The notes under the pieces: generated by a model
The model's input: the letters and a program-made list of their open reading frames with translations, nothing else
The model's database searches: none
Told to the model about the DNA's origin: nothing
Position numbers and translations under genes: made by a program
Assembly: GCA_964036195.1 (NCBI GenBank)
Contig: OZ038460.1
Span: 14,325,504-14,389,503, forward strand
Source of the DNA: Sphaerolaimus hirsutus
Lineage: Eukaryota > Nematoda > Chromadorea > Monhysterida > Sphaerolaimidae
Reading direction: 5' to 3'
Length of the DNA: 64,000 nt
Part shown: piece after piece, positions 1,143 through 56,008 of the stretch
Numbering within the stretch: the first letter of the stretch is position 1
How the letters are laid out: each line of letters begins with the position of its first letter

Positions 1143-1255
1143 GGGGGCACTCCCAGACCCTGTAAAATGTCAAATGCCATGGAAAGTGTCAAAATCATGG
1201 AAAATGGCAAACGTAAGATGTTACAGGGCTTTTTACAGGGTCTGGGATTGGCACC
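1143..1255 (-). mobile_element. Introner-like MITE, copy IE1 (intergenic)
   Basis: Short TIR element. The left end reads GGGGGCACTCCCAGACCC and the right end GGGTCTGGGATTGGCACC. On the minus strand it therefore starts GGTGCCA and ends GTGCCCCC, the same polarity as the copies acting as introns in the K2P genes. Inside are the family's motifs TGTAAAATGTCAAATG and AGTGTCAAAATCATGGAAA. It lies in no recognised gene, which shows that the family is mobile sequence and not merely intronic sequence. Confidence 0.8.
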
Positions 1256-4023: not shown

Positions 4024-7000
4024 ATGTCTACCGCCGTTTATGACAGTTCCCATGTGCCAGCGCGCACTAGAACGCCGGGTGAAACCGGAAAACTTCTGAC
4101 CTACTACATTGACAAAATGTTTGGCCACAAAAGATGGTCGAGCGAGACTAATATGAGCCAAATTAGCATAGCCGCGGTAATTTTACAAAACATAAAAAGC
4201 TTCCGTTTCCATCAAAATGCATTTTCAAACAAAATCAGGCGATGACGACCACAAACGATACTGCAAATGGAGCCACGAATGGAACTGCAGCACCAGGGAC
4301 CACATTTCATTAGGCTGACAGGCTTTTTTTGCGGTAGCTCGATTCATTGCAGCTTCAATTTTAATTTGCTACGTCAAAGTGGCAGCATCGCGGTGAATCT
4401 CAAAAAAAAGATAATTTTCGCAATTTCGCGATCGACAGAAACTCGACTCATGGAAAAAGATACAATGATTCGGGTTGCCCGATAATTCCTGTCGGGCTAA
4501 TTAAATTTAGCACCAGGAAAAGATACAGAGCACGGCCTGCGTCACTATTGGACATTCGCAGTGAAATGGGGCAAGATCATTGGACAATCGATGCTCACTT
4601 ATTGCGGCCTGACCATCGCCGTGCTCATTTACGTGGTCGTCGGTGCATTTGTGTTCCAAGCGATTGAAGGTCCTCGGGGTCAGAAAATGAAAGATTTGGC
4701 GCACAATGAAAGTGTGCTCGTGCATCAGAAGGTGTGAGGATTGATCGCTATATTAGCTTTCATTTGGTGTGAAATTGAAATGTGATATTAAAATGTGAAA
4801 TTGAGATGTAAAAGGCGCCAAAGCAAAATAGCACCGGACAGGCGCCAGTGTCAGGCGCTTTTTTCTACGGCTATGGAAGTATAGCGCCAAAAGCCCAATG
4901 GCGCTTTTTTGAACCCCGGAACTAAGCGCCAATGGCTCAAGCTTCATGGCGCCTTCCACCTTGGCGCTGGCGCCATGGTGCTTTAACATCACTAACCCAA
5001 CACATAAAAAATTATACAAACCCTCAATAAAACCAAATGAAGCCTCCTCAAATCACACTAACCCTCCCGCAATCGTATCCAGTGGCAGTCGCTAGCAAAC
5101 AAGCTGTCCGCCTTCAGCTGCATGCCGAACTTCACTGGGCATGCGCAAGAAATCATAGATGAACACCTGGCTGAGCTACACGTTGCCATAGAACAATATG
5201 GCTACAAGGGACAGGCACCCGCCAGTGAGAACAAGGTGAATGGCGATTGGTCATTTGCCAGCTCGTTGCTGTTCACTGTCAGTGTGGTCACCACTATTGG
5301 TCGGTTGTCAGTTGAAAATGATTGTGGGTGGAATTGCGTGGTCCAATTATAGATTGCCAAATCTAACAGGTTACGGCAACGTTTCACCAATTACGTCAGT
5401 GGGGCGGATGGTGTTGATTGTGTACGCACTGATCGGCATTCCACTGATGCTCATGTTCCTGGCCAACATTGGCGACTTATTGGCCACGTTGTTCAGGACC
5501 GCATACAGTTTGTAGTTTTTCTATCTTGATGTTTGTGTTTAGGTATATTTTCAATAAATAGTTTGCAAAGTTGGTAGATATTTTCATTAATTCTAAATAG
5601 GTACTTATAAAAATCGTTCCAATCACACGATTTCCACTAATTTGTCAATTTACCCAATAACACTCACAATGGTGTCAAACCAGGCCAGGGATGCTGCTAC
5701 CTTTGCAACTGGCGACGCAAAAAGGAACTGGCTTTGGCGGAGGCGTACAAAAAGAAACACGGACAGTTTGCAACGGAGCAAGACAGGAAAAGGTTAATAA
5801 TTATAACTCATTTGCAATAAAAAGTGAATAGATATGAATATAGGTCAATAATTATTATTCACACAGTGAAATTTGATAAGCATTTGATAAAATAAGCATT
5901 TCATCATCTATTCAGCGCAATTTTATTACCGTCGACGCAGACCGAAACGCAGTCGCCGATCACGTCACCGGCGGTCGCGATCGCCCGGCGACGATGACGA
6001 CTACAGGGACAGGGACGGCGACTCCTATTACAGGGACAAGGAGAGAGACAGGTGCCACTCCCAACCCTGTAAAAAGCCCTGTAAAATGTTTAATGTCTTG
6101 CAAAGTGTCAAAAGTTATTTAAAATGCCCTTCAAAATGGCAAACGTACGTTTGCTATTTGGCAGGGCATTTTCCATGACTTATGACACTTTGAATGACAT
6201 TTGACATTTTACAGGGTTTTTACAGGGTCTGAGAGTGCCCCCAGGCCTCGCCGCAGTAGGCCGGCGCCCTCGCGCGGCAGACCCCGATCTGCCTGGGATA
6301 CCGGCTCAAATGGTGCAAGAGTGTAAAATTTTTAAAGTTTTGGAAAGTTAATGGAGACTTGCAGTTAACTGTCATTAACCAGTGGTCAACTGAAAAATAT
6401 ATTTGAAACGCGTTTTAATGAACAGAAAAAATGCGTTTTATGTACTGTACCCCTGTACTTATTTAAATAAGTATTTAAAGTATTTAAAGTAAATAAGTTG
6501 ACAAGTATTTAAATATACGTAATAATGAAAAACTACATACTTTTTGGGAGAAAACGTAAACGTATTTGTTCATTCTTGTGTTGACATTGAATATATATTT
6601 CCTAAATACTGTATCCTGTGTGGAAGGACCAGACCTTATCTTGGTTGTCCCTTATGTATGAGTAATTTTTTTCAATTGCTTGTATGTTGATCCGCTCTAC
6701 CCTTAAATTGAATTAAATTACTCGGTACTCTAGTATGTGTATTTTTCGAGTAAAATTAAATACATTTTCGCAACTGTGAAGCAACGCAGCACCAGTTGAC
6801 ATCACACCCTAAATACAACCCAGCACAGGCAGTCGAAAGGACCTGATAAGCGGTAACCCAGCCGACGACCCGCTGGGCAACGACGGGCAATTCTGCACCA
6901 TGGAAATGATTCTGGTGCCAGTCACAGACCCTGTAAAATGTCAAAAGTCATGCAAAGTGTCAAAAGTCATGGAAAATGCCCTGCAACTCGGTTGCCATTT

Positions 7001-9140
7001 TGCAGAGATTTTCCCATGACTTTTGACACGCTGCATGACATTTTACATTTTACAGGACATTTTACACGGTCTGGGACTGCCCCCAGGAGGAACCGCCGGT
7101 GGTGTACGTGCCCGTGTCGTTGACGCTCACCCTGATCGTGTCCTACATGATGATGGGTGCCATACTGTTCGCCGAGTGGAACGATTGGAGTTGGACGACC
7201 AGCGCATATTTTACATTTGTCACACTGTCTACTGTGGGTCGGTTTTGGCATCGATTTAATATTCGTGGGTAAAATTCATTTTTGGTGAATATCCACGCGT
7301 TTTTGACCCTTCACCCGAAATCGCGAGTGCGGAAGACGAACAGCCTTCAGAGGGGGGGGGGAGGGTTTTCATTAGTACAAAAGTGCATTCGTACAACAGT
7401 AGCTTTTGTACAACAAGAATGCTCATTACGACAAAACGTGCTTTCTTACAACACTAATCCCGATTGTACAACACCTGTCGCATTTGTACAACACATGTCG
7501 CTTTTGTACAATAAGTGTTGCTTTTGTACAACATAGTAAAGAATGCATCCATCATATAATGTCCTTATATTTCACATGCAACATACTATTTTGTCCACTT
7601 GGGTTTCCCGCACCTGTCAGAAAAAGACCAAATGAAAAGTGACATCAGTGCTTTAATCAAGCACAAAAAATTGAAGTGGCCAGATGTTGCAGTCATTATG
7701 ATTAGTTCAAGGTGTAATTTTCTGCAGCCTGATGCAGCCGTGCCTATGGCAACACAAACTGTATGGCTGCGCTGTGGTGCAGCACATGCAGCAGCTGGTA
7801 TGCATGCACCAGATAAATGTGCCAGCACCTACTGTACAGCATGATCTGTCTGGTGCTATTGGTGGTGTAATTAGGCTGGAAATATAGCATTTGTTTTAAA
7901 AATCATTCTGTCTGCCCTAATCTGCTGTTATCTTATATCTGCTAAATTTTATTACCTGTCATTTAATAGTGTTGTACTAAAGCAACATTTGTTGTATGAA
8001 TGCGACATGTGTTGTAAATACGAATGTGACACATGTTGTACAATCAGGATTACTGTTGTACGAAAGCACATTTTGTACTAATGAGCACTTTTGTTGTATA
8101 AAAGCTACTTTTGTACGAATGCACTTTTGTCCTAACGACGCACACTCTCGGAGGGAGTTGAAAGCATTGGTTACCTATGCACAAAAATAAAATTTTTAAA
8201 GAGAACGCGCTCAGCTGAAAACAACGACGTTTTGACATAACTGGACAAAAGTTTTGACATAGGTACATAAACTGGACCAAATAGTTGCAGCAGATCCGAA
8301 AACGGAGGCCAATGTCGGCCACTGAAGGCTTAGGCCCATTTTACAGTGCACTTGTGTGATGGCAATATATCTTACTTGGCACAGACCTTTTTGTGATGAC
8401 AAATCTATTTTTTAGCAGATTTTCACGAGTGCGACGACTGGTCGGCCTCGTTATTGGCGACAAGTAAAATACCAACGATTTTTTCCCCATTCTCACTGTG
8501 ACGACTAGATCAAATATTTCACTCCGGGCTCCGACAGTGGCAAAAAATTCAAAATGTCTATAACTCTTGAACAACAAGGAGAATTCATCTGAAATCTGTC
8601 ATGCATATACACCTATTTGGTATGTATACTTAACCACATTCACTCACGAATATGGAACTTTTCACTCGACTTATGGAACTTTTTCAAGTGTTGTCAGAGT
8701 CGTCACAAAAATGCAGTGCAAACGCTGTCTAAGGCGTCTTAATCGAAGATTACTCGAATCAGCAAGCCCCCAATCAATCAAAGTTCGTCACCCAAAAACA
8801 TGGCAGGCTTCGGCGACCTGGTGCCCGGCTGGTCGGAAGTGGACATCGGCTCCGAGCAGGACAGCAGCGGCAACGTGGAGCTGGGCGTGGGCGCCGCCTA
8901 CATCGTGGTCGGCCTGGCCATGCTGTCCATGAGCTTCAACCTCATGATGGAAGAGATCGTGCTCAAGGTCAGGCTGCTCGGCACCCAGTTGGGTAGGTTT
9001 ACAATGCGGCGCAGTGCAGTGCTTGTGGGCTTTGTTGGGGCAGTGTGCTCTGTTCACTGTGCAGTGCAATACACTCAGGCATAATCAAGGAGGAGGAGCC
9101 GGAGGAGGATGTTGCGCAGACGGATGCTTCCATTGTGTAG
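4024..9140 (+). CDS. Two-pore-domain potassium channel (TWK/KCNK type), copy A
   Basis: Spliced model, 12 exons: 4024-4176, 4239-4296, 4517-4731, 5083-5299, 5370-5507, 5684-5792, 5941-6051, 6245-6312, 6829-6914, 7087-7237, 8807-8992, 9079-9140. They sum to 1554 nt (517 aa). K2P channels are dimeric plasma-membrane background K+ channels. TM1 is near residues 100-122, and pore 1 has the filter TTIGYGN near 212-218, split by a phase-1 intron. TM2 has YALIGIPLMLMFLANIG, TM3 lies near 393-415, pore 2 has VGFGD near 435-439, and TM4 is SMSFNLMMEE. A cytosolic RS/D-rich linker (RRSRHRRSRSP) joins the halves. Sequons NES and NFT lie in the extracellular cap region. The ATG directly follows an acceptor. 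Two introns are introner-like elements absent from copy B. The exon 2/3 junction needs a GG-AG intron; all other introns are GT-AG. Exons 1-2 are the least certain. Confidence 0.85.
4297..4516 (+). mobile_element. CACCAG-type TIR element forming a non-canonical intron
   Basis: The segment is flanked by a direct repeat (CACCAGG at 4291-4297 and 4511-4517) and has inverted ends: ATTTCATTAGGCTGACAGG on the left against CCTGTCGGGCTAATTAAAT on the right. Removing it exactly restores the reading frame from GTAAP to GKDTEHG. Whichever phase of the direct repeat is chosen, no GT-AG pair results; the best is GG-AG. The first GT donors lie beyond stop codons in all frames of exon 2. A relative lies at 33861-33978 in an FRMD intron. 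Confidence 0.6.
4796..4995. mobile_element. GGCGCC/CATGGCGC-rich MITE in K2P-A intron
   Basis: Dense GCGCCA, TGGCGC and GCCATGG motifs, ending in the inverse of TAGTGATG (ACATCACTAA near 4985-4994). The left terminus is eroded. Same family as 45502-45645. Unit B has a corresponding copy at about 14780-14942, so the insertion predates the duplication. Confidence 0.55.
6052..6244 (+). mobile_element. Introner-like element IE2, a complete intron of K2P-A
   Basis: This 193-bp element interrupts an exon that is continuous in copy B. The left junction is GAGACAG|GTGCCACTCCC and the right is GAGAGTGCCCCCAG|GCCTCG. Copy B reads straight through (GGGACAGGCCGCGC near 17560-17575). Inverted ends (TGTAAAATG ... 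CATTTTACAGGG) and an inner palindrome centred on AAATGGCAAACGTACGTTTG mark it as a MITE. It carries its own GT donor. The acceptor CAG equals the CAG left of the element, so it may be a 3-bp target duplication. The intron is phase 2. Confidence 0.88.
6915..7086 (+). mobile_element. Introner-like element IE3, a complete intron of K2P-A
   Basis: This 172-bp element of the same family lies in the exon preceding TM3. The junctions are ATTCTG|GTGCCAGTC and GACTGCCCCCAG|GAGGAACC. Copy B has the uninterrupted codons ATTCTGGAGGAGCCG at 18452-18466. The left target triplet is CTG and the right one CAG. If CTG was duplicated, a T-to-A change on the right made the AG acceptor. The intron is phase 0. The left half carries TGTAAAATGTCAAAAG and the right half the inverse (TGACATTTTACATTTTACAG). 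Confidence 0.88.
7372..8135. mobile_element. TIR element in K2P-A intron (pore 2)
   Basis: The ends are TTAGTACAAAAGTGCATTCG and the inverse, CGAATGCACTTTTGTCCTAA. Subterminal regions are built from repeated TGTACAAC/GTTGTAC motifs on both sides. The core (about 7600-7900) has no transposase-like frame. Unit B lacks it, so it inserted after the duplication or was lost from B. Confidence 0.65.
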
Positions 9141-11582: not shown

Positions 11583-14500
11583 ATGTCTACCGCCGTTTCT
11601 GACAGTTCGCATGTGCCAGCGAGCACTAGAACGCGTAGTGAAACCCGAAAACTTCTGACCTACTACATTGACAAAATGTTTGGCCACAAAAGATGGTCGA
11701 GCGGGACTAATATGAGCCAAATTAGCATAGCTGCGGTAATTTTAAAAACATAGAAAGCTTCCGTTGTCATCAAAATGCATTTTCAAACAAAATCAGGCGA
11801 TGACGACCACAAACAATACTGCAAATGGAGCGACTAATGGAACTGCAGCTGCAGGGACCAGATTTCATTAGGCTGACAGGTATTTTACGGTAGCCCGATT
11901 CATTGCAGCTTCAATTAGGTATAATCTGCTGAGTCAAACGAATGTGGAAAACCACGCGGCGAATTTCATATACCTACCGTATTTCCTCGAAATACCCCCT
12001 CAAAATTCTCACTCTGAAAAAATAAACCACCTGGGAGGAAATACGGTAGATATAAAAGACAACTTTCGCGAACTTCAGACAATATTTATAAAAAGAAATA
12101 CAGCAAATCCTCGCATAAGACCACCCTCGAATAACTCCCCTGTTGGTGAGATGGGAAAAAAACTTCCCCTCGAATAAATCCCCCCTCTGTATGAAAAGAA
12201 TACAATGCGAAAATACATACCGTATTTCCTCGTGAAAATTTTGAGAGAAAAACGTGAAAAATGCAACAATAACCACCATTTAGAAGTTTTTACAGCCTTA
12301 TATAAGGATGTACCTAGTAGGTATAAACGATTTTCTAACGTAACACAGTATTTATTTATTTATTTATTTATTGTCAACATGAGATGTAGGGCCATACCCA
12401 TTGCTGGGTTCCGCCCCTCTCTCTCCTACCATCGCCAAGGCTAGCCCAGCTGGGCCCAGCCTCAACCTGACGCAATCAACATTGATAAGTACTTACACCT
12501 ATGAGTGAGATTCATCGATCTGTTATTTGCACCACGCATTCGCGTATCATACTATCGATACCCCTTCTATGAGCATGGCATAGTTTAGCTCCAAGGGGAT
12601 TTACCCTCCAATCACATGGTATAGAGCATCGTATTTTCTTCAGATTTTCACGGTCCTTTATATTAGCTTGGCACACATAAAGAATGTGATGCAAATTGGC
12701 AACTATTTTCACACTGCTGTTTGAGCAGCACTTACAGACTTTTCTTTTAACACCACTCCTTGTACGCAGAGCATTATATCTTGCAGCTAACCAATTCAGC
12801 TCGTTATAGTAGATATTTTTGATTTCTACTTGGTCTAGCACATCACTTCTGTTTGTAACTGCTGTTTCTTCCTTGAGTCTATTGCGTGCAGTCGTCATCC
12901 GTTTTTGATGTATATAATTTTTTATATCTGATCCTCTCAAGTTCTGGATAACCGTGTTTATCTGTGAAGACTCAATGCAATGGTTGACCAGTGTCTTGTT
13001 GGTATTGTCAATTTTCATATGTGAGTTACCTGATAGCAGCTTGTCGGTTTCATGAGCTCTCACCAACCATCTGGTCCTACAAGCACGTTGCATGTAGTTA
13101 TCGTTAGTCAATATTAGTTGGTTATATTTATCGGACGGCAGTATACCATTAATGTCATACAGCAGAGAGCTGCTGCTGCAACTGATTGGCAGCCTAGCTG
13201 CCTTTTTCATTGTTTGCATGTATATCTTGTCCATCTCTGTTAGTTGGCTCTTGTCCAATCCGGTTATCTCTACTCCATACATTGATCCAGGTTCCACATA
13301 GGCCTTCCATGTGATGTTAGCTGTGTGAAGGGGTGTATATGTCCCTTTGGCAGCACTTAGTGGTAGTGTACTTAACCTTTTCATTTTGGTTAGGACATTG
13401 GATTTGTGTGCTTTAAAGGGATCTACACCGGTATTTATTAACACCCCCAAGTATCTTATCTGATCCGTTTCTTTTATTATTTCCCTCTTGCTGTTTCTTG
13501 AACCCCCTACATCAATATACCATTTTCTTTTTGCAATTTTACTATCGCCCCATCGAAGCACTTCACTTTTTGATGTATTTATACTCACGCTCCATTTCCA
13601 GGCCCATGAGCTGAACACACTCATAAGATGTTCAAGTTCGCTATCTCTTGATGCCATAATAACAATGTCATCAGCAAAGAATAGTGCTGGTATTTTCTCG
13701 TTTCCCAGACCACATTTAGCTCCCATTTTTGTTTTTAATAGCTCTGTTGCAAGATCATGTATATATATTGCATAGAGTGTCGGGCTCAGGGCACAACCCT
13801 GTGCCACACCAATTGGGTAGGCTAGCGTGTCACTTTCATACCCTCCATATGTCATCACCGCTTTTGTCTTTATGTAGACATTTGCTATTGCTGTAACCAG
13901 CATGCTTGGTACGCCCATCATTGTCATTTTTTTCCATAGTTTTTCTCTGTCCACGCGGTCAAAAGCTTTAACCGCGTCAATGAAACAGGTAACAAATGGA
14001 TTACCATTCACTTGAGCATAGTTGTAACATGTCTTTAATATCTGCACATTATCTAGTGTTCGCCTACCCGGGCGGAACCCCCCTTGCATCCTAAGTAAAT
14101 ACCTAAGTGTTTTGAACGTCTGTTATGCATTTCCGGGACCACAAATTCATAGTGCCAATTTTGAGGGGGGTATTTCGAGGAAATACGGTAAGAATATTAG
14201 CCTATAGCAGCGACAGCAAATACATGCAGATGTGTATGCAGTGTATACACATGTTTTTGTTGTTGTTGTTGGACGAATACCTGAATTACATAAGTTGACA
14301 GACTGCATCCATACAATGAATTCAGTCCAAGTTTTCTGAGGAAAAAATAACTCCCCCCTTGTATAGGTCCCCCCCTCAAAAACTTCTGGCGAAAAAATAA
14401 CTGCCCGGGTCTTATTCGAGCATTTGGTGTACAATGACTCGGGCTGCCCGAAAAAATACCTGTCGGGCTAATTAAATTTCCCACCAGGAAAAGACTCTGA

Positions 14501-17500
14501 GCACGGTCTGCGTCACTATTGGACATTGGCAGCGAAATGGGTCAAAATCATTGGACGATCGATGCTCAGTTATTGCGGCCTGACCATCGCCGTGCTCATT
14601 TACGTGGTCGTCGGTGCGCTGGTGTTCCAAGCGATTGAAGGTCCCTTTGATCAGGGTATACAAAATTCGGCTCACAATGAAAGCGTGCTCGTGCATCAGA
14701 AGGTGAGAGGATTGAGCGGCAGTTCTCATCTAGTGTGAAATTGACTACCCCAACTAAAGGTGTAAAAAGCAAAAGGGGTCGCAACTTTGACGCCACGCGC
14801 CTGCGACAGGCGTTTTCGTTCCAGGCGCCATGGAAAACAATCGCCAAGCACCAAAAGCGCCATGGCGCCAGTGCAAAACGACACTAAGCGTCATGGCGCT
14901 TTCCACTTTGGCGCTACGGTCATGCCTTTTTTACATCACTACCCCCAACAAATAATACAATACAAACCCCCACTAAAACCAAATAATGCCTCAAATCACA
15001 ATTTTCCTCACCCGAAATCGTGTCCAGTGGCAGTCGCTAGCAAACGAGCTGTCCGCCTTCAGCTGCATGCCGAACTTCACTGGGTATGCACAAGAAATCA
15101 TAGATGAACACCTGGCTGAGCTACAGGTGGCCATAGATCAATATGGCTACAGGGGCCATGCACCCGCCAGTGAGAATGGAGAGGATGGCAGTTGGTCATT
15201 TGCCAGCTCGTTGCTGTTCACTGTCAGTGTGGTCACCACTATTGGTGGGTTGTTCATTGTTGGCAGTATTGTTGAATGAAGGTACTGAACTTTTTTCAAA
15301 GAAAACATAAATGTAAAGTACCTACCTATTTATTTTTTACTCACCGCTGAGTACAGAAAATGTATAGTAAATTTTTTTTCGTTTACTCATGAGTAGTGAT
15401 GGAAAAAGCGCCAATGTCGCTAGGGCAATATGGCGCCAAGCGCCAGAAGCGCCATGGCGCTCTTTGCTTTGGCGCTAGAGCCAAGCGCCAGCGAGCACTC
15501 GGTACCAGAGTTGCGAAAGCGTATTTACGCTTACCCGAAATACCCGGGTAAATGGGTATTTATACTTACGCTTACGCTTACGCTTTCATAAAATACCTGT
15601 ACGCTTGATTACGCTTTCCCAGCCAAAATACCCGGGTACTAAAAGCGTAATTTTTTTTTCACATTGTCCGGTTTTACACTTTCGAAAAAACGCGCTAGTA
15701 GTGTAAAACTACAGAAAAGAAAGAGAATGAAACTGCATACCAAAAAATGACCGCATGTGTGCAGTAATGCACTGAAAATAGCGGCACATGTACAAATTGT
15801 GTCGCATTATGAATGTCTGTTAAATACTGTGCCGTGGAGCAAAATATTTATATGGCTTTAGATGGCAATGGCTTTAGAATATAAATTTTGGGGCCAAAAT
15901 GCACACGTCCTAGTTCGAAAATGAAAATGACTTGACTGTATCTTATGTTTACGCTGTTAGAAGAAATACGGTAAGTATTTATGAGAATACATCGCAAAAC
16001 TCGACAGCATAAAGTCAGAGTTCGAAAATGAAAATGAGTTAACTCTTGCTGCCAATTAACTGCCATCAACATCTAAGGCCAGACTACAAGTGGACATCCG
16101 AAAAAGGTCGCTGAAAGCTTGATTTGGAACGAATTCACTGGGCAAAAACTCCCAGGAAATTTTTTACGCTTACGCTTTATTTTACGCTTTCCCAGGTATT
16201 TAAAAAATACCTTACGCTTTTAGTATCCACACTCAAAATTTAGAAAGTGTATTTACGCTTACGCTTACGCTTTCCAAAAATACCGGTATTTTAACAACTC
16301 TGCTCGGTACTCGAGTATAGGTATTTGTCGGGTAAACGAAAATACGTTTGAACAACTATGGTGTTGGAGGATGAAAATGATTGTCGGCGAAGTACAGGTT
16401 GCCAAATCTCACAGGTTACGGCCATGTTTGTCCAATTACGTCAGTGGGGCGGATGGTGTTGATTGTGTACGCACTGATCGGCATTCCACTGATGCTCATG
16501 TTCCTGGCCAACATTGGCGACTTATTGGCCACGTTGTTCAGGATGGCATACAGTTTGTAGTTTTTGTTTCTTGGAATTTGTGGTACTCTTGATATTTGTG
16601 TCTATTGGCGATGCACACACTGCAATAGTTCACTAAGGGTAAACTTATAATTTAGTAAACTCATTGTCCATCTTCTGAGTGCACCTGAGTTTACCGGAAG
16701 AAGCTGTTCGTCAACTGCAGTTGACGGAGATTAAATATAACACATTCCGGCAAACTCAGATGCGCTCAGAAGTTGAAAAATGAGTTTACGGGTAGTTTAC
16801 TAACGGTAAACTAAAAATTGGTGGTGTGTGCTGCGCCATTATAAATAGGCAGGGTTGCAGGGTAGACATTTTTTTATTAATCCACAATAGTTATAATAAA
16901 TGTACAATTAGACGATTTGCACTTATTTGCCACTTAAATCACATTCACATTTGTGTCAAACCAGGCCAGGGATGCTGCTACCTATGCAACCGGCGACGCA
17001 AAAAGGAACTGGTCTTGGCTGAGGCGTATAAAAAGAAACACGGCCAGTTCGCAACGGAGCAAGACAGGAAAAGGTCAATACCTAATTACGGTATCTGCTC
17101 GAATAATTCCCCCGGTGAACTATTTTTTTGAGGTGACAATTATTCAAAGGCAAATATTTCGTCAAAATTCTCAAGCATGCTTCTATCAAGTTTATGTTTT
17201 ATTAAGACAAAAACATACCATTTTTGTTCAAATTGGACATAACAAATTGATCATATGCATTACGGTAGGGGGAATCATTCAAGGGGATATTTTTTTTCAC
17301 ACTCGTTTTACACGGGGTAATTATTCAAAAGGGGGAATTATTCAAGTGGAAACTATTCTAGAGGGAATTATTCAAGCAAATGCGGTATTTTACTTATTTG
17401 ATCTTTGCATTCAGCGCAATTTCATCACGCGCGGACGCAGGCCGAACCGCAGTCGGCGCTCACGACACCGGCGGTCGACGTCGCCCGTCGACGATTCGTT

Positions 17501-19447
17501 GCGCCGCCGCGACGACTACAGGGACAGGGACGGCGACTACTATCACAGGGACAACGAGAGGGACAGGCCGCGCCGCAGCAGACACGCCAGCAGGCTGGCG
17601 CCCTCGCGCGGCAGACGCCGTTCGGCCTGGGACACTGGCTCAAATGGTGCCCGCGGGCACGTGTTTTTACAACAGTTTTGGAACGCTAATGGAGACTTCT
17701 TACCTACAGTGATTCATTAACTGTCATTAGCTAGCGGTCAACTGAAAAATACATTCGTATTATACATTTGAAAATACTTAAGTCAAACGTAAGGCAAATG
17801 TTATGACGAAAAATAAGATTCGGATACAAAAATAAGACACTTGACTTTACATGATAATTGACACTTTACTTTGCATTTGACAATTTACTTCACACTTTAC
17901 TTTACATTTGACACTTTGCATAATAATTGACATTTGACTTTACATTTGACACTTTAAAGGGCTTGGGTCCCAAGCGGGTTCGGGTAGTAGAGTGGGTTCG
18001 GGTATCGGTTTTCGGTTCCAAAAAGTGTGCGGGTATCGGGTTAGGGTCGGGTCGGGTTCCCAACCATAGCTTGGGACGGACCATGACCACTTTACAAGTA
18101 TGAAAGTTTACAAGTAACAAAAACCTGAAACTTTACAAGTAATTTCATACAACTTTACAAGTAATTAGACCCAAGTTTACAAGTAGATATCAACTGCATT
18201 TTTGCGCGCACTTTACAAGTAAACCACCAATCTTTTCAAGTAAAAAAGCGCACTTAACAAGTATATTATGATGTAGTGATTGGTGTGACCACTACTTTTA
18301 AGGAAAAGCACTGGCTTGTTTTTAGTTGACATCATACTCTACACGTCACCCTATTTACAACCGAACGCAGGCAGTCGGAAGGACCTGATGAACGGTAGCC
18401 CAGCCGACGACCCGCTGGGCAACAACGGGCAATTCTGCACCATGGAAATGATTCTGGAGGAGCCGCCGGTGGTGTACGTGCCCGTGTCGTTGACGCTCAC
18501 CCTGATCGTGTCCTACATGATGATGGGCGCCATACTGTTCGCCGAGTGGAACCACTGGAGTTGGATGACCAGCGCCTACTTTACCTTTGTCACCCTGTCT
18601 ACTGTGGGTTGGTTTTGACGCTGCTCAAAAATTTGTGGGTTAAGTTCATTTTGGAAATTTGATAGGGGGTTTAACGAGGGGTGTTACTATTTCGCCAAAA
18701 ATTTCTTAAACTCCCAGTACTGATTTGTTTGGTTGTAACGTACGCAGACGTAGAAAAATGCAAAAATAAATGCAATGTATAGAGTCTATAGACTTCCATT
18801 TTGAGGAGTGGTATTTCGAGGAAATACGGTATATAACTAGACAAAATCGTGGGAGCAGATCCAAAAATCTAGAACAATATCAGCCACTCAAAACTTCCAA
18901 ACCAAAAATCGTAACTCTAGTCATCCAGCCCCACACCAATCGCAGGCTTCGGCGACCTGGTGCCCGGCTGGTCGAACGTGGACATCGGCTCCGAGCAGGA
19001 CAGCAGCGGCAACGTCAAGCTCGGCCTCGGCGCCGCCTACATCGTCGTCGGCCTGGTGCCAGTCCCTTTAAAATGCCCTGTAAAATGTCAAATGTCATGC
19101 AGTGTCAAAAGTCATGGAAAATGCCCTGCAAAATGGCCACCGCAGGGCATTTTCCACGACTTTTGACACTTTGCGTGACATTTGACATTTTACGAGGCAT
19201 TTTACACGGTCTGGGAGTGCCCCCTGGCCATGCTGTCCATGAGCTTCAACCTCATGATGGAGGAGATCGTGCTCAAGGTCAGGCTGCTCGGCACCCAGTT
19301 GGGTACGTTTCTGCTGAGCAGTGAAATGGTTGTCGGCTTTGTTTGTGTAGTGCGCTCGGTTTATTGTGTAGGGTAATACACTCACGCATAATCAAGGAGG
19401 AGGAGTCGGAGGAGGATGTTGCGCAGACGGATGCTTCGATTGTGTAG
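11583..19447 (+). CDS. Two-pore-domain potassium channel (TWK/KCNK type), copy B
   Basis: Exons: 11583-11735, 11797-11854, 14488-14702, 15028-15244, 16415-16552, 16965-17073, 17441-17646, 18371-18607, then 18946-19055 and 19227-19302 split by IE4, and a last segment 19386-19447. All landmarks of copy A are present: TM1, GYG filter, IGIPLMLMFLANIG, RS/D-rich linker (9 codons longer), GFGD filter, TM4 and the SIV C-terminus. Exons 7 and 8 are intact where copy A carries introner introns. Two lesions appear at the 3' end. IE4 interrupts TM4 coding and ends in CTG, not CAG. The acceptor before the last exon reads CTCAC where copy A has CTCAG. The copy may be decaying, use alternative acceptors (GGGAG|TGC in IE4 restores frame with three extra residues), or tolerate unusual splice sites. 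A 2.6-kb intron, enlarged by a LINE, separates exons 2 and 3. Confidence 0.75.
11975..12048. mobile_element. Very short CCGTATTTCC-type MITE
   Basis: A 74-bp unit with inverted ends TACCGTATTTCCTCGAAATA and GGAGGAAATACGGTA. It is probably an internally deleted copy of the family at 12221-14190. It lies in the large intron of K2P-B. Confidence 0.6.
12346..14100 (-). mobile_element. 5'-truncated non-LTR retrotransposon (LINE)
   Basis: The fragment contains the RT open frame and, beyond its stop, a 3' tail of tandem AAAT units (plus strand ATTTATTTATTT near 12349-12371), as found at the 3' end of several LINE clades. The 5' end is cut at about 14100, inside the RT domain. Confidence 0.75.
12512..14089 (-). 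CDS. LINE reverse transcriptase, C-terminal part
   Basis: 525 codons uninterrupted on the minus strand. RT motifs appear in order: GGFRPGRRTLDNV (motif 1/2 region), FIDAVKAFDRVDREKLW (motif A with catalytic Asp), GVAQGCALSPTLYAIYIHDL (motif B region), and FFADDIVIM (the ADD catalytic pair, plus-strand 13665-13678). The C-terminus has a Cys/His cluster, C-x-C ... H-H-x2-Y-x-C, as in LINE RT-linked zinc knuckles. No endonuclease domain remains because the element is truncated; the ATG is simply the first Met after the break. The intact frame suggests fairly recent insertion. The clade (I/Jockey/CR1-like or other) is not resolved. Confidence 0.85.
   Translation of the reverse strand: MQGGFRPGRRTLDNVQILKTCYNYAQVNGNPFVTCFIDAVKAFDRVDREKLWKKMTMMGVPSMLVTAIANVYIKTKAVMTYGGYESDTLAYPIGVAQGCALSPTLYAIYIHDLATELLKTKMGAKCGLGNEKIPALFFADDIVIMASRDSELEHLMSVFSSWAWKWSVSINTSKSEVLRWGDSKIAKRKWYIDVGGSRNSKREIIKETDQIRYLGVLINTGVDPFKAHKSNVLTKMKRLSTLPLSAAKGTYTPLHTANITWKAYVEPGSMYGVEITGLDKSQLTEMDKIYMQTMKKAARLPISCSSSSLLYDINGILPSDKYNQLILTNDNYMQRACRTRWLVRAHETDKLLSGNSHMKIDNTNKTLVNHCIESSQINTVIQNLRGSDIKNYIHQKRMTTARNRLKEETAVTNRSDVLDQVEIKNIYYNELNWLAARYNALRTRSGVKRKVCKCCSNSSVKIVANLHHILYVCQANIKDRENLKKIRCSIPCDWRVNPLGAKLCHAHRRGIDSMIRECVVQITDR
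15394..15505. mobile_element. TAGTGATGG-type MITE, left part
   Basis: Begins AGTGATGGAAAAAGCGCC and is full of GGCGCC/GCGCCA motifs. It is cut by the hAT-like insertion that starts at 15506. No clear right end was found on the other side of that insertion. Confidence 0.5.
15506..16302. mobile_element. hAT-like TIR element, CAGAGTTG ends, 8-bp TSD
   Basis: Starts CAGAGTTGCGAAAGCG and ends with the inverse, CAACTCTG. The 8-bp sequence CTCGGTAC is present on both sides (15498-15505 and 16303-16310), as expected for hAT insertion. Subterminal arrays of TTACGCTTACGCTT lie at both ends. No transposase frame, so it is non-autonomous. It lies in K2P-B intron 4, the intron that splits the GYG filter codons. 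Confidence 0.8.
17087..17387. mobile_element. CCGTA-type MITE in K2P-B intron 6
   Basis: The left end is ACGGTATCTGCTCGAATAAT and the right is the inverse, ATTATTCAAGCAAATGCGGT. Inner GGGGGAATTATTCAA motifs match other members. K2P-A lacks it in the same intron. Confidence 0.6.
17720..18365. other. K2P-B intron with degenerate short repeats
   Basis: 17840-17960 is a loose repeat of TTGACACTTTACTTTACATT-like units. 17960-18070 is rich in GGGTTCGGGT/GGTCGGGTC. 18080-18260 repeats ACTTTACAAGTA. No gene was recognised. The first tract shares its vocabulary (TGACACTTT, TTTACATTTGACA) with the introner interiors and with the satellite at 50190. Confidence 0.45.
18650..18830. mobile_element. CCGTATTTCC-type MITE, truncated
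   Basis: The right end GGTATTTCGAGGAAATACGG and the interior (TTTCGCCAAAAATTTC, GTACGCAGACGT) match the family. The left terminus is not visible. It lies in the K2P-B intron between the two halves of the second pore filter. Confidence 0.5.
19056..19226 (+). mobile_element. Introner-like element IE4 inside a K2P-B exon
   Basis: A 171-bp family member inside the TM4 exon. The left junction is GGCCTG|GTGCCAGTCCC and the right is GAGTGCCC|CCTG|GCCATG. Copy A reads GGCCTGGCCATG without a break (8913-8924). CTG is on both sides, fitting a 3-bp target duplication that does not supply AG. Read through, it meets a stop (TTT TGA near 19165). Splicing at the internal GGGAG (19213-19217) would keep the frame and add three residues. 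Either the gene is damaged or this is an intron at an early, imperfect stage. Confidence 0.85.
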
Positions 19448-23700: not shown

Positions 23701-26700
23701 AAGTGAACGCATGCAATGCTGCCTTCTCGAGAACGAAATCAAAACCCTGATGTAATAACAAATTCTAAGCACTTCTAATTCCGACGCACCTGTACACCAT
23801 GAAAAATTTCCACATGATGTCTGTCCGCGTTGCCCATGATCCAATCAAAGAGCGCAGTGTCCATCATGTCCAAATAAATTGGCGGATTGCCAAAAATTGT
23901 GTGTCTGCGCACAGTGAGCTCGCAAAAATCGCGCCGACTTTCCCACGTGGCCGATTTGCCAGATTCTGCGACGGCAGTTCACATTCACAGCGAAAGACAG
24001 GTCAGTGAAAATTTAAAGGGACTGGGGTATCGGGATTTTTGCCCGTCATTTTCGTCGCGTGGCAGTGCAAAGGCAGCTAAATTGCCACAAACTTTCAATT
24101 TCATTTGCTGGCTCCGCGACGAGACACAAATGCCTGGTATTTATTCATTTTGATTTGTCGGGACCCAGGTAGATCGAAATCTTCCCGTTTCACTTCATTT
24201 TACCCGACAACGGTTAATATCACCGTTAACAAGACTAGGGTTGGCCGATGTTTTTTTAAAAACGTTTTTTATTAAAAAAAACGTTTTTTTTAATAAAAAA
24301 AACATGACGTCCGAAATGTTTTTTTTTAAAAAAAACATCGACCGAAATTTTTAGTACTAAGCACTAGGTATTTTGCAAAATTTTTGCGCGCAAGCGCGCA
24401 ATTTCACACACAAATTGACATTGGTGGTTGTTTTCATTGGTTTTGTGGCATTTTTAGTATCAAAGTATCCATTTATATATGCTACCATGGGTGAATAAGC
24501 CGTCATATGTTGCTGTAGTATATAATATTGAGGTAATGTGCTTCCATGTACCTCCACAGTGTGTAACTTCACTCCCAAAGTAACAACCTTGTTTTATAAC
24601 CTTGTTTGATCACTATTCCGTGCCAAACTTGACCTGAAGTCACGAACATTCGACTATAAGGCGATATACGAATGATATGTCGACAAAAAATGGATATTTT
24701 TGACACAAATCACCACTTACAATGCTATCCCATGGCTCCACAGACATTATATGGTCATATATAACATCACAGAGTATTGCCACTGTCTGATATACCTATA
24801 TATGTTGACACAAGGTTATATCTGGGAGCTTTTAAAAAAAAACGTTTTTTATTAAAAAAAACGTTTTTTTAAAAAAAAAAACATCGAGTTAAAAAAAAAC
24901 GTTTTTTTTCCAACCCTAAACAAGACCTACCATAACTTCTGATCCACGGACTCGCGATGCGCTCCAGCGAGCTGTACGAATTCCACAAAACTATGGCGCC
25001 AGGTAGATTGCCAGAAGCATCCGCGCACACGGGGCTAGAGGGGCGGCAGTAATGGCACTTGCCGTAGAAGCACCTGGGTTCGAAAAAAATTAGTAAGTTT
25101 AGTCAACTTGTCTACTCGAACTGGATGCTGATCAGCTAGAACGGCAGCGACCGTCAATTCAATAAGAATCAACAATCAAAATCGACCCTGTGCCGGCAGC
25201 CCTGTAAACCCGCTGGCCATGTAGCGTCAAAAATTTCTATTTTTGACGTTTCTGGTCACTTTTCACTTTTTAAAGTGGTGAACACATTGTGGTGAGTAAA
25301 GTCAAATATGATAAGAAATGCCATTACTTATAATATTTGATTTTATTCAAATGTGTTCAGCACTTTAAAAAGTGACTAAAAACGTCAAAAATGTCTATTT
25401 TTGATGTTTTTTTGTCACTTCACACTTTATAAGGTGAAGATATTCCTTGAATAAAGTCAAACTATGATGAGTAAAGATTTCTCATCATATACATGGGTCT
25501 ACGTTGCCGTGGCGTAGAATTACATGTCCACCCGGTCTCTACATGGCCAGCGGGTTTACATGGCCAGGGAGCCTACGTCTCAAAATCCACACTGCACACA
25601 AACCAGCGCTTAGTCTGTTTATCCTTGTAAAAGGTTGCATTCAGCTTGGGGTCCATCACCCGCGGCAAGGCCTCCTTTTGTAGGTCAATGCTGCGACCGA
25701 CTGCGACCGGCGTCCGCGGCAGTTGTAAAAGTATGCCTGCGCGCAAATGGAGCATCTCATGCAATTCATTCACACTGGAGATGGTTCCGTTTTAGCATTC
25801 CGGGCACTTCTAGACCCGGCAAATGTCAAACCATGCTAGCCATTTTCTAGGACATTTTACATGACTCTTGACACTTTGCGTGACATTTGACATTTCACAG
25901 GGTCTGGGACTGCCCCCAGTTGACACACAACTACATACATAGCAACAAACTGAGGTAGAAAGCGGCGATCTCCGCCGCGTGTCTGTCCGGCCCGGCGTAG
26001 GGGGTGTCGCTGGGCGCCATCTTGTCCCTGTGCAGCAGCTCAGGCTTGAACAGAGCGTACTGGCCCCCGCGCAGGCGCAGCGCCAATTTGAGCTGTTTTT
26101 GAGATGTTGGGCGGAGAACCAGGAAATATAATTCGAAACCTTTTTTCATAGCACCATACGAAGAAGCCTATACTCGACGGACAGCACACCTAGCATGAAA
26201 ACCTACCATAATTTAATGAATAAAATTTCGTGAAAAATTTCGTGATTAATTATTTCACAGTAAAATCGCAATATTATTATGAAAAAACTGTATAATTTTT
26301 GGTTCATTATTCAGACGGGTTATGGTAGGTTTTCATACCAAGTGTGATGTCCTCCGCGTATACAAGAAACTGACTTGAGTGCCCTTTTTGGGGGTGCCAA
26401 TTTCATCGATGGGTGCGGTGGCCACAGCGCGGACGACTTTCGTCATTTCTCGCATGGTGAGGTTGTGCGGCGCTAGCGCCCTACTGTGCGTCCAACTATC
26501 GATGTTTTTCCATATTGCCTGTGACACGAATCGATTGCCACCTTCATGTGATAGGAATCTACAAATTCTTCTTTACTGAATATTACCGCACATTGACGGA
26601 TGATAAATTATTTTGGGAAAAAATGACGACGGTGAAAGCATGAGAAATATAATGCAATTGACCAGCTACGTACCATGTAAAAAATTGAGTGCTTTTTACC

Positions 26701-29285: not shown

Positions 29286-29449
29286 GGGGCACTCACAGAC
29301 CCTGTAAAATGTCAAATGTCATGCAGTGTCAAAAATGCCATGTAAAATTCCCAGTAAAAAGTCAAACGACGTTTTGTTATTTTACTGGGCATTTTACATT
29401 AGTTTTGACACTTTGAATGACGTTTTACATTTTACAGATTCTGGGAGTG
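29286..29449 (-). mobile_element. Introner-like MITE, copy IE6 (intergenic)
   Basis: The left end is GGGGCACTCACAGACCC and the right is ACAGATTCTGGGAGTGG. On the minus strand it ends GTGAGTGCCCCCAG, the same acceptor-like terminus as the K2P introns. The inner palindrome is centred on AAACGACGTTTTG. It lies between FAM20B and FRMD, in no recognised gene. Confidence 0.8.
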
Positions 29450-31162
29450 GAACCCGCAGACAGCAAAAAGCATCTTAGAAGTAAAAAAGACAACAATTCA
29501 AAAAACAGTACCCATTCGCCTCAAAACTTTCTTCCAAATAAATAGTAGGTGTTCTAATGAAAAAGTGCAATTTGTTGCAAAGACAAAAGGTCATCAGTCG
29601 ATAAAGTGCAGAGGTCCAATTAAATATCATGTGACGCCGTCGCGACAGATGCAAACAGATATTCGAAAAATAAATTATAAGCACAGAGCAAACTGGAAAA
29701 GTGCATATTTGTCCAATCAGGTACATCAATTATGATGTAACGCAGTTACAGATGAATAAAATATACATTGAACATGTTGGCTGACTAGTTCACGTAGTCC
29801 AGGAGTATTCATGAAATATTTTTGAATAACGAATCGATTATAGACTGCGAGTCGCATTTTACAAATATGGACTGTTTGAATGGACAAAAACATTTACCAG
29901 TCTGCGTGGCCGCATAAAAAAGTGGTGCAAATAATTCGTCAATTTCTGCGACACAAACTCCAGCTCCAAACCAATCACCACAGCAATGTTTCACAATCTA
30001 GATTACAACGATATGCTATCACAACACGATTTATCAAATGCCCCCAAGCCCCTGTAAACGATTCACCGTTTAGCCACGCCCACTTTTACGCAATTAAACA
30101 GGAATGACCTTTTGCTCACTACCCAAAATTTGAAACTGCAATACAACCCCGTTAAGATAGACGCAAAACACAAGCACGGCAAAGTACGGGACAACACCTC
30201 AGAAAAGAGTTCAAGACAATGTTAGAACATCAAAACCACTCATATTAGACGAAAAACTTGCATTATGTTTTCTATGTGGGAACAGAATCGTGAAGTGCAT
30301 GCAACCCATAAATATGTTCTAATCATAGCCATCATTAACTACAAGTTGATCAAATTACATCACTAGCAATTTGTTTTCTTATACTTGTTTGCACAGCGTT
30401 GAAGGAAGAGACACAAGACACGTGTGGACACGAACCAAATTAACCTACAATTCGCTATTTGTAGCCGATCGAAATTGTTAGTAGAGGTTGGCAGTGACCG
30501 GGCACTTTGCCAGGACATCTCGTTAAACCTTGGCCACGTGCCAACATCGACAAATACAACACAAATTCAATTATAGTATAGTATGGCATGCATGATTATC
30601 ATGTGATGTGGATTCTAATCCTCTGCGATGGCCATGATCCATGGTCAGCATCCTGGACGAAATGTCTGATAATGAAAAAGGAAGTAACCAATCCCATTAT
30701 AATCATGGCATGCAGATAAAAGAAGGTGCCAAACAGCCAAATTGAACAGTGTTGAATGACTTCTCATTGGAGCTATTTTTCAACAGACAATTTTGAGGGG
30801 CTAGTTATTAAAGGTTCTTATTCAAAATATGACCACTCACAATCCGTCTCAACTTGGCTGAGTGGCACTATGTTACCTACACAAGTACACAACGCATGCA
30901 CGTACTTACTTAGAGCCGACAACTTTGTGTCTAAGCGGCTCATAGCAAAAGTGTCTAAATTGGTGTGTGCCGGGCACTGCATCCAGCCACGCGCGCATGC
31001 TGGCGCTCGTGTCGCAGACCTGCGAGCGCATACGAATGTTTGGATTTGAGGAAAATTGTTAATGGCCCCATGCACAATGGTTGACAGACGAAACTGATAA
31101 ATCAGCTTTGACCACATTTGAGTTTACCAAAATGAATCACTCTTCAAAATTTGTCGAAGGTT
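29450..31162. other. Intergenic, no gene recognised
   Basis: Between the FAM20B 5' side and the FRMD 3' side. Several short open frames lack motifs or conserved splice context. No repeat ends could be fixed. Confidence 0.4.
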
Positions 31163-31772: not shown

Positions 31773-47385
<15,613 letters not shown>

Positions 47386-50189: not shown

Positions 50190-51360
50190 GTTGATGTCAA
50201 GTCAAATGTCAAGTGATAAATGTCAAGTGATAGATGTCTAGTGATAAAATATTAAGTGATAAAATATCAAGTCCAATATCAAGTGATAAATGTCAAGTGG
50301 TAGATTTCAAGTGAAATGTCAAGTGATAATTGTCAAGTGATAAATTTCAAGTGAAATGTCAATTGATAAATGTCAAGTGATAGATAGTTATAAAATATCA
50401 AGTGATAAAGTATCAAGTCAAATTTCAAGTGATAACTTTCAAGTCAAATGTCAACTGATAAATTTCAATTGAAAATGTCAAGTTTAATGTCAGATGATAA
50501 ATGTCATGTCAAATGTCAAGTCAAATGTAAAGTGATAAATTTCAAGTGAAATGTAATGTCAAATGTCATGTCAAATGTCAAGTGACCCATTTCAAGTCAA
50601 ATGTCAAGTGACAAATTTCAAGTGAAATGTCAAGTTTAATGTCAACTCATAAATGTCAAGTCAAATATCAAGTCATATGTCAAGTCAAATTTCAAGTGAT
50701 AAATGTCAAGTCAAATTTCAAGTGAGAAATGTCAAATCAAATGTAAAGTTTAATGTCAAGTGATCAAATATCAAGTCAAATGTCAAGTTATAAATGTCAA
50801 GTCTAAAGTCAAGTCAAGTCAAATGTCAAGTGATAAATGTCAAGGTGAACATACAGTGATAACTTTCAATTGAAATGTCAAGTCAAATGCCAAGTGATAA
50901 ATTTCAAGTGAAATGTCAAGTAATAAATTTCAAGTGAAATGTCAAGTCAAATGTCAAGTCAAATGTCAAGTCAAATGTCAAGTCAAATGTCAAGTCAAAT
51001 GTCAAGTTAAATGTCAAGCTTAATGTCAAGTGATAAATGTCATGTCAAATGTCAAGTTTAACGTCAAGTGATAAATTTCAAGTGAAATGTCAAGTTTAAT
51101 GTCAAGTGATAAATGTCATGTCAAATGTCAAGTAATATGTCAAGTAACAATTTTCAGGTGATACCTGTCAAGTTGTTTATGTCAAGTGAAAACTATCAGG
51201 TGAAAAAATGGCAAGCAGTTCATGTCAAGTCATAAATATCAAGTGATGCCATTCAGTCATAAATGTCAAGTGGTTTATGTCAAGTTATTGTCAAGTGGGT
51301 AATTTCAAGTCATAAATGTCAAGTGATAACTTTCAGGTTCTAAATGTCAGGTTGAAAATC
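50190..51360. repeat. Degenerate tandem array of TGTCAAGTNATAAA-like units
   Basis: About 1.17 kb of 10-14-bp units built on TCAAATGTCAAG and TGATAAATGTCAAG. The phase and unit length drift. The most regular stretch is near 50935-51010 (TCAAGTCAAATG repeated). No coding content. It is a satellite-like low-complexity array. Confidence 0.85.
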
Positions 51361-54036: not shown

Positions 54037-56008
54037 TAGGGTGTCAAAAAAATTTTTTTACGGAAAACGGAAAGGTAAAATTTTTTCACTTTACGGAAAA
54101 CGGAAAGGTAAAAAAAAATTTTCTGCCGGAAAACGGAAAGGTAAAAAAATTTCACTCAGCGGAAAACGGAAAACGGAAAGGTAAAAAAAAATTGTCGGCC
54201 GGAAAACGGAAAACGGAAAAATGAAATGCCGGAAAACGGAAAACGGAAAGCAAAATTTTCACGGAAACGGAAAAAAATAAAGTGAAATTAGCACGGTAAT
54301 AGACAAATTTGCAGAAAGAAAACCTGCATGCAGGTTTGCCTGTTTGGCTTTGATTGTGGTAGTTGTACATTCTGCAACTATGGATCATGCCTGTAACTTC
54401 ACTTGTAGTTCAAGCTTAACTGAACCAACAAAAAATCATCAAAAAGTAGCCATAGTGGCCATAGGAAAGGAAACACTACGACAATTTCACAGTCTAGAAG
54501 CAGTGGGAATCACTGATGACCCCTATGCAATTGATGACAACATTGCAGAGGAGATGATAATAAATAGCATAAAATTCCACGACAACAACAAACGATACTA
54601 TATTGACTGGCTGTATAAAGAGAGTATCAGTGACCTGCCCACGGGAAAAGCAGAAGCCTTGGTGCAGTTTAAATCACTGATAAGAAGATTCAACAAAGAT
54701 CCAAACTTATTCGAACAATACTGGAAAGTTTTGGACGACCAACTAGAAAAGGGAATAATTGAGATCTGTGATGACAAAACAGACAACAAGGGGATTCATT
54801 ACCTGCCACACCAGCCAGTAATCACGCCGGGCAAATCGACATCATGCAGAATCGTGTACGATGGGTTGGCAGGTAAGCCCAGTTTCAACGAGTGTCTTTT
54901 TAGAGGACCAATTACAACACAATTAGCACTGGGCCTACTCCTGAGGTTCAGGGCAGGCAATCTAGCATTAATTGCTGATATTGAAAAGGCATTTTTGCAA
55001 ACAGGATTGCATGACCAAGCTAGAGACTACACACGATTTTTCTGGCTGAAAGATGCCTCAAAACCAGTAACTGAAAATAACTTAATAGTACTTCATTTTA
55101 AACGCGTACTGTTTGGACTTGTCTGCAGCCCAGCAATTTTGGGAGCAGTCATAAAATATCATTTAAATGTGACAATAAACAACATGAATGAATATGAAGA
55201 AAATGAAGGGGAACAAAACCAGTTGGCAATGATAATAAACAACATTTATGTCGATAACTTCATCATGAGTGTCACGAATGAAGTTGAAGCTTTAGAACTA
55301 TATTACAAAGTCAAAGCTTTATTTAACCAATGTTTTATGAACATGAGGGAATGGCTGTCAAACTCCAGATCAGTCATGAATGAAATAGCAGAAAATGACA
55401 GGAGTCCAAAGGTGAATAAAATTGTCGCAGTAATGGGCATGAAATAAAATCACCAAACAGACATGCTGGCAATATCAACACCAAAATTGCAAATTGACAG
55501 CATCACAACACCAACCAGATGAAGCTTGAATAAATTATTGGTGTCAGCATATGACCCAATTGGGTTCACAGCACCTGTTTCACTGACCCTGAAATCCTAG
55601 TTGTCAATGCTGCTCCAAGAGACACAAACAACACAATGGGATGAGCCAATTGAAGATAAGTACGGATTGGAAAAACAATGGAAAAATGCCAGAAAATGGA
55701 AAATCGAGCCAGAAAATGGAAAAATGGCCTGGTAAAACGGAAACGGAAAGGTAAAAAAATTTCAGCCGGAAAAACGGAAACGGAAAGGTAAAAAATTTTC
55801 AGCTGCCGGAAAACGGAAAACGGAAAGGTAAAAATTTTTCGGCTGCCGGAAAACGGAAAACGGAAAGGTAAAAATTTTTCGGCTGCCAGAAAACGGAAAA
55901 CGGAAAGGTAAAAATTTTTCGGCTGCCGGAAAACGGAAAACGGAAAGGTAAAAAATTTTCCTGCGGAAAGGCAGAATCGGAAAACGGAAACGGAAATTTG
56001 ACACCCTA
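54037..56008. mobile_element. hAT-like composite element carrying a BEL/Pao fragment
   Basis: Starts TAGGGTGTCAAA, ends TTTGACACCCTA, with GCTGAATC on both sides (54029-54036, 56009-56016). At each end there is an array of CGGAAAACGGAAAGGTAAAA-like units (about 54058-54280 and 55680-56000). The interior is a BEL/Pao reverse-transcriptase segment with no LTRs. The element therefore looks like a non-autonomous DNA transposon that captured retroelement DNA. Confidence 0.8.
54344..55447 (+). CDS. BEL/Pao retrotransposon RT fragment (captured)
   Basis: 367 codons uninterrupted. The N-terminal part has the linker typical before the Pao RT (LRQFHSLEAVGI, then NNKRYYIDWLYKE). The RT core has LPHQPVITP, RIVYDGLAGKPSFNECLFRGP, IADIEKAFLQ (motif A with Asp) and LFGLVCSPAIL (motif B). 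The motif C position reads IYVDNFI where the family has YVDD, so the second catalytic Asp is Asn. Protease, RNase H and integrase are absent. Downstream DNA (55450-55640) keeps RT-like words but with stops. It is a remnant and unlikely to be active. Confidence 0.8.
   Translation: MALIVVVVHSATMDHACNFTCSSSLTEPTKNHQKVAIVAIGKETLRQFHSLEAVGITDDPYAIDDNIAEEMIINSIKFHDNNKRYYIDWLYKESISDLPTGKAEALVQFKSLIRRFNKDPNLFEQYWKVLDDQLEKGIIEICDDKTDNKGIHYLPHQPVITPGKSTSCRIVYDGLAGKPSFNECLFRGPITTQLALGLLLRFRAGNLALIADIEKAFLQTGLHDQARDYTRFFWLKDASKPVTENNLIVLHFKRVLFGLVCSPAILGAVIKYHLNVTINNMNEYEENEGEQNQLAMIINNIYVDNFIMSVTNEVEALELYYKVKALFNQCFMNMREWLSNSRSVMNEIAENDRSPKVNKIVAVMGMK

Follow-up and report, generated by a model that had tools for sequence, protein, structure and literature searches.

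A NuwaI-like hairpin transposon family as a probable source of introns, some possibly ending in TG, in the nematode Sphaerolaimus hirsutus

The interval that splits an exon of a two-pore potassium channel gene (K2P-A) of S. hirsutus at positions 6052-6244 is probably an introner, namely a non-autonomous hairpin element with terminal inverted repeats (TIR) that is NuwaI-like (PIF/Harbinger-related), inserts at CWG, preferably within CCWGG, and, as we infer from the sequence, is spliced out. All positions refer to the window, the whole stretch of 64,000 nucleotides that was analysed. Features shared with introners are a single family whose copies are similar up to their borders, exonic sites that are empty in homologues, and a target duplication together with TIR, so that the interval qualifies as a putative intron of transposon origin. 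We see about an even chance that GT-TG introns form a regular class in this animal, originating from a NuwaI-like introner whose symmetry was broken (GGGG to GTGC), with CWG as acceptor and possibly with the help of a diverged second U2AF1.

K2P-A, whose named database matches are TWiK-7-like and other two-pore potassium channels, and its paralogue K2P-B (Table 1) share 89.5% protein identity, with a dN of 0.055 and a dS of 0.187; the resulting dN/dS of about 0.3 indicates that both genes are under constraint. The initial annotation had interpreted the interval as a filled site in K2P-A facing an empty site in K2P-B, and this was borne out, as the homologous K2P-B exon (17441-17646) is whole. 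Exact excision at GACAG^GTGCC...GCCCCCAG^GCC (^ marks a border) yields one open K2P frame, again as proposed. The view that all 193 bp of the interval belong to a TIR element has to be amended: the hairpin is real, with an 84.8% match to its own reverse complement across 184 columns, but the element proper comprises 190 bp (6052-6241) and the CAG at 6242-6244 is the second copy of the target duplication. In addition to this copy, we found two exonic copies absent from that annotation, at 6915-7083 and 19056-19223, each of which is empty in the other paralogue. All three copies lie in sense orientation and differ from the family consensus by 8.3-9.1%, a divergence that would fit insertion around or after the duplication of the K2P gene. 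When the elements and one copy of each duplication are removed, the frame stays open to the stop for 448 codons in K2P-A and 457 codons in K2P-B. The last K2P-B intron (19366-19386, placed by homology) ends in CAC where K2P-A has CAG, which may represent a lesion or, alternatively, a further acceptor other than AG.

Table 1 Features of the K2P gene pair and of the element family in the window.
Feature	Positions	Strand	Remark
K2P-A (TWiK-7-like), gene model of 10 exon pieces, 5' start provisional	4513-9140	+	Single open frame once copies 1 and 2 are removed
K2P-B, paralogue, 9 exon pieces, 5' start provisional	14484-19447	+	Single open frame once copy 3 is removed
Putative introner copy 1 in K2P-A, 190-bp hairpin element, 5' GTGC, 3' CCCC	6052-6241	+	9.1% from consensus
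Copy 1, target duplication CAG, 5' copy, exon side	6049-6051	+	
Copy 1, target duplication CAG, 3' copy	6242-6244	+	Would supply AG acceptor
K2P-B exon homologous to the exon split by copy 1	17441-17646	+	Unbroken; empty site GACAG^GCC
Putative introner copy 2 in K2P-A, exon just before M3, GTGCC...GCCCC	6915-7083	+	Empty site in K2P-B, 18451-18464
Copy 2, target duplication CTG, 5' copy	6912-6914	+	
Copy 2, duplication, 3' copy, CAG and not CTG	7084-7086	+	Gives AG acceptor
Putative introner copy 3 in K2P-B, M4 exon, GTGCC...GCCCC	19056-19223	+	Empty site in K2P-A, 8905-8922
Copy 3, target duplication CTG, 5' copy	19053-19055	+	
Copy 3, target duplication CTG, 3' copy	19224-19226	+	Exact removal would be GT...TG
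Shorter relative of the element	1143-1255	-	Outside K2P exons
Truncated relative	25802-25919	+	
Relative with GTTCC end	29286-29459	-	Outside K2P exons
Decayed relative	47035-47201	.	

The genome of 348 Mb holds thousands of copies of the element. Its mobility had been deduced from two relatives outside genes, at 1143 and 29286, both of which do lie outside the K2P exons, and the copies in the genome exceed chance: CAG plus the 24-base 5' end gave 3757 matches with up to one mismatch and a strict two-ended pattern gave 481 copies, whereas the backward-read control patterns of both searches gave 0 matches each. The hairpin is non-coding and mostly 165-192 bp long. For detailed analysis we used 90 of 100 listed places, all of them on C1 and C2. 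In the region of the OSCP1 gene (L043 and L044, C1, approximately 3590486-3594497), the element is present at least four times over a span of about 3 kb. The window also contains a long degenerate satellite (50194-51353) with units of 12, 26 and 38 bp such as AAATGTCAAGTC, whose words, judged by eye, are much like those in the arms of the introner (AAATGTCAAATGTCATG); the arms may derive from such satellite repeats. Retroelement-like frames are present at 12515-14122 (minus strand, RVT_1), at 54281-55444 (RVT_1 match below cut-off) and at 61377-63998 (PNMA match just below cut-off); there was no match to phage DNA, and a search against Rfam returned nothing at gathering score within the window. 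The COX1 of this assembly (L129, a contig of 14,754 bases) is 91% identical to one database sequence and approximately 69-70% identical to many arthropod and priapulid COX1 sequences.

The 189-nt consensus pairs with itself in the predicted fold except for a 5-nt loop and the four terminal letters, which read GTGC at one end and CCCC at the other (GGGG on the reverse strand). Since the palindrome is broken at these last four letters alone, GT is found at one end only. One end of the inserted element reads CWG^GTGC and the opposite end GCCCC^CWG. As the pattern behind the 481 copies itself demanded asymmetric ends, the symmetric forms were counted separately; at the same search stringency, the combination GTGC/GGGG occurred 481 times, GGGG/GGGG six times and GTGC/GTGC ten times. 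A search by similarity within the DNA regions analysed gave 33 rows, 28 of which were readable at both ends, and 22 copies were left after removal of six repeats (overlapping loci or copies already selected by the pattern). Nine of these 22 copies end exactly in GGGG/GTGC, in five GTGC faces a sequence that is one or two letters away from GGGG, and eight have other ends; GGGG/GGGG or GTGC/GTGC was seen in none of them. A palindrome in which inequality is retained only where one end reads GT is the outcome expected from selection for a splice donor.

With regard to affiliation, transposons of the NuwaI group of PHIS transposons are described, in the available parts of the report by Han et al. 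(2015, PMC4482050), as duplicating 5'-CWG-3' and ending usually in GGG. The S. hirsutus element shares with this group the animal host and the CWG duplication (CAG/CAG in 32 and CTG/CTG in 29 of the 90 copies, the remaining 29 being imperfect); its tips agree with the group in part, one end reading GGGG and the other GTGC. It differs in being a non-coding hairpin and in that no transposase is linked to it. The duplication is preceded by C in 50 and followed by G in 51 of the 90 copies, which points to a CCWGG-like target. Autonomous members of the NuwaI group encode a DDE transposase together with a Myb/SANT partner. The genome contains 163 matches to the Harbinger-type transposase domain PF13359, and in none of the 30 loci examined (L009-L038) was the transposase accompanied by both introner ends within about 1.5 kb. 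The abundant family represented by these loci was therefore rejected as autonomous partner, with one end near a single locus, L028. Members of this family are close to each other: compared with L033, 27 of the 29 other loci are at least 97.1% identical over the aligned stretch, L015 is 89.0% identical, and L024 aligns in two pieces of 99.2% and 96.6%. Stops inside most of the PF13359 matches look like transposase introns. The element resembles a NuwaI MITE in its duplication and in one of its ends, but as no transposase is linked to it, we label it NuwaI-like. The initial annotation knew of no description of this family; in the open-licence literature, introners and Harbinger were named together in fungal work only, with one mention of Harbinger in the accessible text, although novelty of the family is not provable in this way.

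In order to assess the coding potential around the insertions, we fused the two flanks of each of the 90 loci at the duplication and calculated a codon-usage score for all six frames across the joint. The score exceeded 10 at 35 joints, 32 in sense and three in antisense orientation of the element (L042, L057, L070; one-sided binomial 2e-7 for the sense excess), where the 32 sense joints are not wholly independent because L094 and L095 are near-duplicates. Sorted by the 3' copy of the duplication, sense and antisense joints number 10 and two for CTG, and 18 and one for CAG. Because loci of the same sample had served to seed and refine the first codon model, a control model was trained on K2P-B alone, and it gave 14 sense and no antisense joints at score 10, and 21 sense and one antisense joint (L080) at score 8. 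Thirty joined frames, picked by coding score or by eye and derived from 29 loci among the 90, were submitted to Pfam; 16 had a match up to an E-value of 0.01 and 14 had none. In nine of the 30 frames, all nine in sense, a domain above cut-off spans the joint: CNOT9 (Rcd1), OSCP1 twice, an AMP-binding enzyme, a xanthine/uracil permease, trypsin, an Srx-type receptor, an E1 dehydrogenase and a COMM-domain protein. Judged by element lengths and stops, retention of the element would cause a frameshift or a stop at each of these nine joints. CNOT9 was found at one locus in the genome, on C1 at 10595728-10596412, its two parts abutting at the element. Weaker spans below cut-off, also in sense, were obtained for L123 and L066, and matches that do not span the joint for L073, L099, L071 and L063. 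Some results speak against the introner reading, namely the three antisense calls by codon score, for which no Pfam match was obtained in the frames tested, the antisense call L080 of the control model, and L058, where a GDT1 match in antisense stops short of the joint. The length of open reading frames does not separate the strands either (35 sense versus 27 antisense at 60 amino acids) and was dropped as an indicator of coding direction, the antisense frames being open, too.

A duplication of CTG leaves a border without AG, which raises the possibility of a GT-TG introner, a point absent from the initial annotation. With the GT donor, exact removal would end in TG in five of the nine Pfam-supported copies (L065 in CNOT9, L043 in OSCP1, L056, L053 and L055), i.e. 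in CNOT9, one OSCP1 site, the permease, the receptor and the E1 dehydrogenase; all five have CTG/CTG and end in GGACTGCCCC, whereas L044, L095 and L076 have CAG/CAG and L069 has CTG/CAG. It is unlikely, though well worth considering, that only GT-AG introns are involved, in the sense that the CAG copies are introns and the exonic CTG copies are harmful recent insertions, matches in decaying genes or users of a nearby AG. In favour of this, CAG/CAG is slightly more frequent than CTG/CTG among the 32 sense coding joints (14 versus 10), window copy 2 and L069, both exonic, combine a 5' CTG with a 3' CAG, and copy 3 in K2P-B has an upstream GGGAG that is in frame and would add three codons. However, compared with the 39 loci scoring below 4 (eight CAG/CAG and 11 CTG/CTG), the ratio at coding joints suggests that AG is at most mildly favoured, and mismatched duplications outside exons (one CTG/CAG and two CAG/CTG among the 90) are too few to judge. 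The in-frame acceptor GGGAG^TGCCCCCTG is missing from all five Pfam-supported CTG/CTG copies, one of which lies in the sole CNOT9 locus found; these copies are 3.6-9.1% from the consensus and thus hardly all recent, and the constraint on K2P-A and K2P-B argues against decaying genes. GTAAAA donors and TTTTACAG acceptors inside the element were also considered and rejected, as they shift the frame (worked out by hand on the consensus).

A second alternative, which we hold to be distinctly less probable, is SOS splicing, a spliceosome-independent process that detects inverted repeats paired with each other and cuts the element from the mRNA, after which RTCB joins the ends. SOS splicing is triggered by the pairing of inverted repeats, and the near-perfect hairpins of the family, whose consensus is predicted to pair up to the last four letters and the loop, would suit it. 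As the element would be cut out and the ends rejoined by RTCB, no AG would be needed, in agreement with the CTG borders. The process is known in animals according to the accessible part of a review (PMC13247085). On the other hand, removal by structure alone should, as we reason, ignore the orientation of the element, yet 32 of 35 coding joints are in sense, as are all 14 at score 10 under the K2P-B model, and the GTGC/GGGG asymmetry kept by the family would be left unexplained.

Precise somatic excision from the DNA, as for the internal eliminated sequences of ciliates or for mPing, whose excision sites are reported to be precisely repaired (PMC4561436, in the portion available), would account for the exact restoration of the frame whichever the duplication, but it should not track the direction of transcription and the copies remain in the assembled DNA, so that we consider it very improbable. 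Least credible of all is that ancestral introns were lost from one paralogue, for although a filled and an empty site by themselves give no direction, the family is mobile with target duplications, the three sites are split 2:1 between K2P-A and K2P-B, and the empty sites carry an unduplicated CWG. The origin from an introner-like TIR transposon, as put forward in the initial annotation, is thus favoured by the three insertions split between the paralogues, the CWG duplications, the genome-wide copies and the sense bias.

For the preferred introner reading, we propose that insertion at CWG duplicates three target bases, that the GT carried by the element would serve as 5' splice site in sense copies, and that the second copy of the duplication, following CCCC, would serve as 3' splice site. 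A CAG target would produce a GT-AG intron, as for copy 1 and, by means of its 3' CAG, for copy 2, and a CTG target would produce a GT-TG intron, as for copy 3, CNOT9 and others. The weak TG site might be aided by the hairpin, which would join the ends, by TTTTACAG, located 19 nt upstream of the intron end in the consensus, and perhaps by a second U2AF1 gene. U2AF1-like pieces were found on C14, on C720 (with the same pattern as C14) and, more divergent, on C16, the last being nearer to U2AF1 than to ZRSR2; strong matches to U2AF2 were confined to one place, C6. The second, diverged U2AF1-like gene is a hint toward non-AG splicing, not proof of it. Searched against the whole genome, human ZRSR2 matched U2AF1-like loci only, and the factor for U12-type 3' sites may be missing from this genome.

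Several known systems share parts of this arrangement, each described here as far as the available text of its report goes. The introners of Chrysochromulina (Gozashti et al. 2022, PMC9860276) are likewise exonic introns derived from transposable elements, with a carried 5' and a co-opted 3' splice site, but they have 4-bp duplications and no TIR, as opposed to a 3-bp CWG duplication and a full TIR hairpin here; rare GC and GA 5' sites are described for them and TG 3' sites are not seen in that text, whereas the host is an animal here and TG as well as AG ends are predicted. In the tunicate Fritillaria borealis (PMC13326754), the triplet before the 5' splice site recurs as the final triplet of the intron, as it would in the S. 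hirsutus family, and non-AG 3' ends, predicted here, are accompanied by extra copies of U2AF1 and U2AF2. An extra U2AF1 gene may be common to both animals; the Fritillaria introns are mainly AG/AC and AG/AT as opposed to GT/AG and GT/TG here, where U2AF2 is found at one place. Amoebophrya introner elements (PMC7789003) resemble the S. hirsutus family in their inverted-repeat hairpin and in direct repeats overlapping non-canonical borders; they differ in their protist host, in variable borders and in the lack of family-specific inverted repeats, compared to one family with fixed ends here. Human TG 3' splice sites (Szafranski et al. 2007, PMC2374985) belong to U2 introns that end in TG with an AG nearby, as predicted for our case, where the AG lies 19 nt upstream. 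The 36 human sites are alternative ones, which in the part of that survey available occur solely as options beside an AG no more than 28 nt away, and a class of many constitutive TG acceptors made by a mobile element would be unusual by comparison.

The introner reading connects the origin of introns with a kind of transposon that already has a name, and it outlines how this may happen: the preferred target, CCWGG, is similar to exon sequence next to introns, a difference of two letters at one tip would provide the GT, and the duplication would provide the opposite end. The natural pairs of CAG and CTG copies, together with the contrast between sense and antisense copies, can separate removal by the spliceosome from SOS splicing. 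Should the CTG copies prove to be spliced, mobile DNA would be loosening the AG rule in an animal, which would make S. hirsutus a case comparable to Fritillaria.
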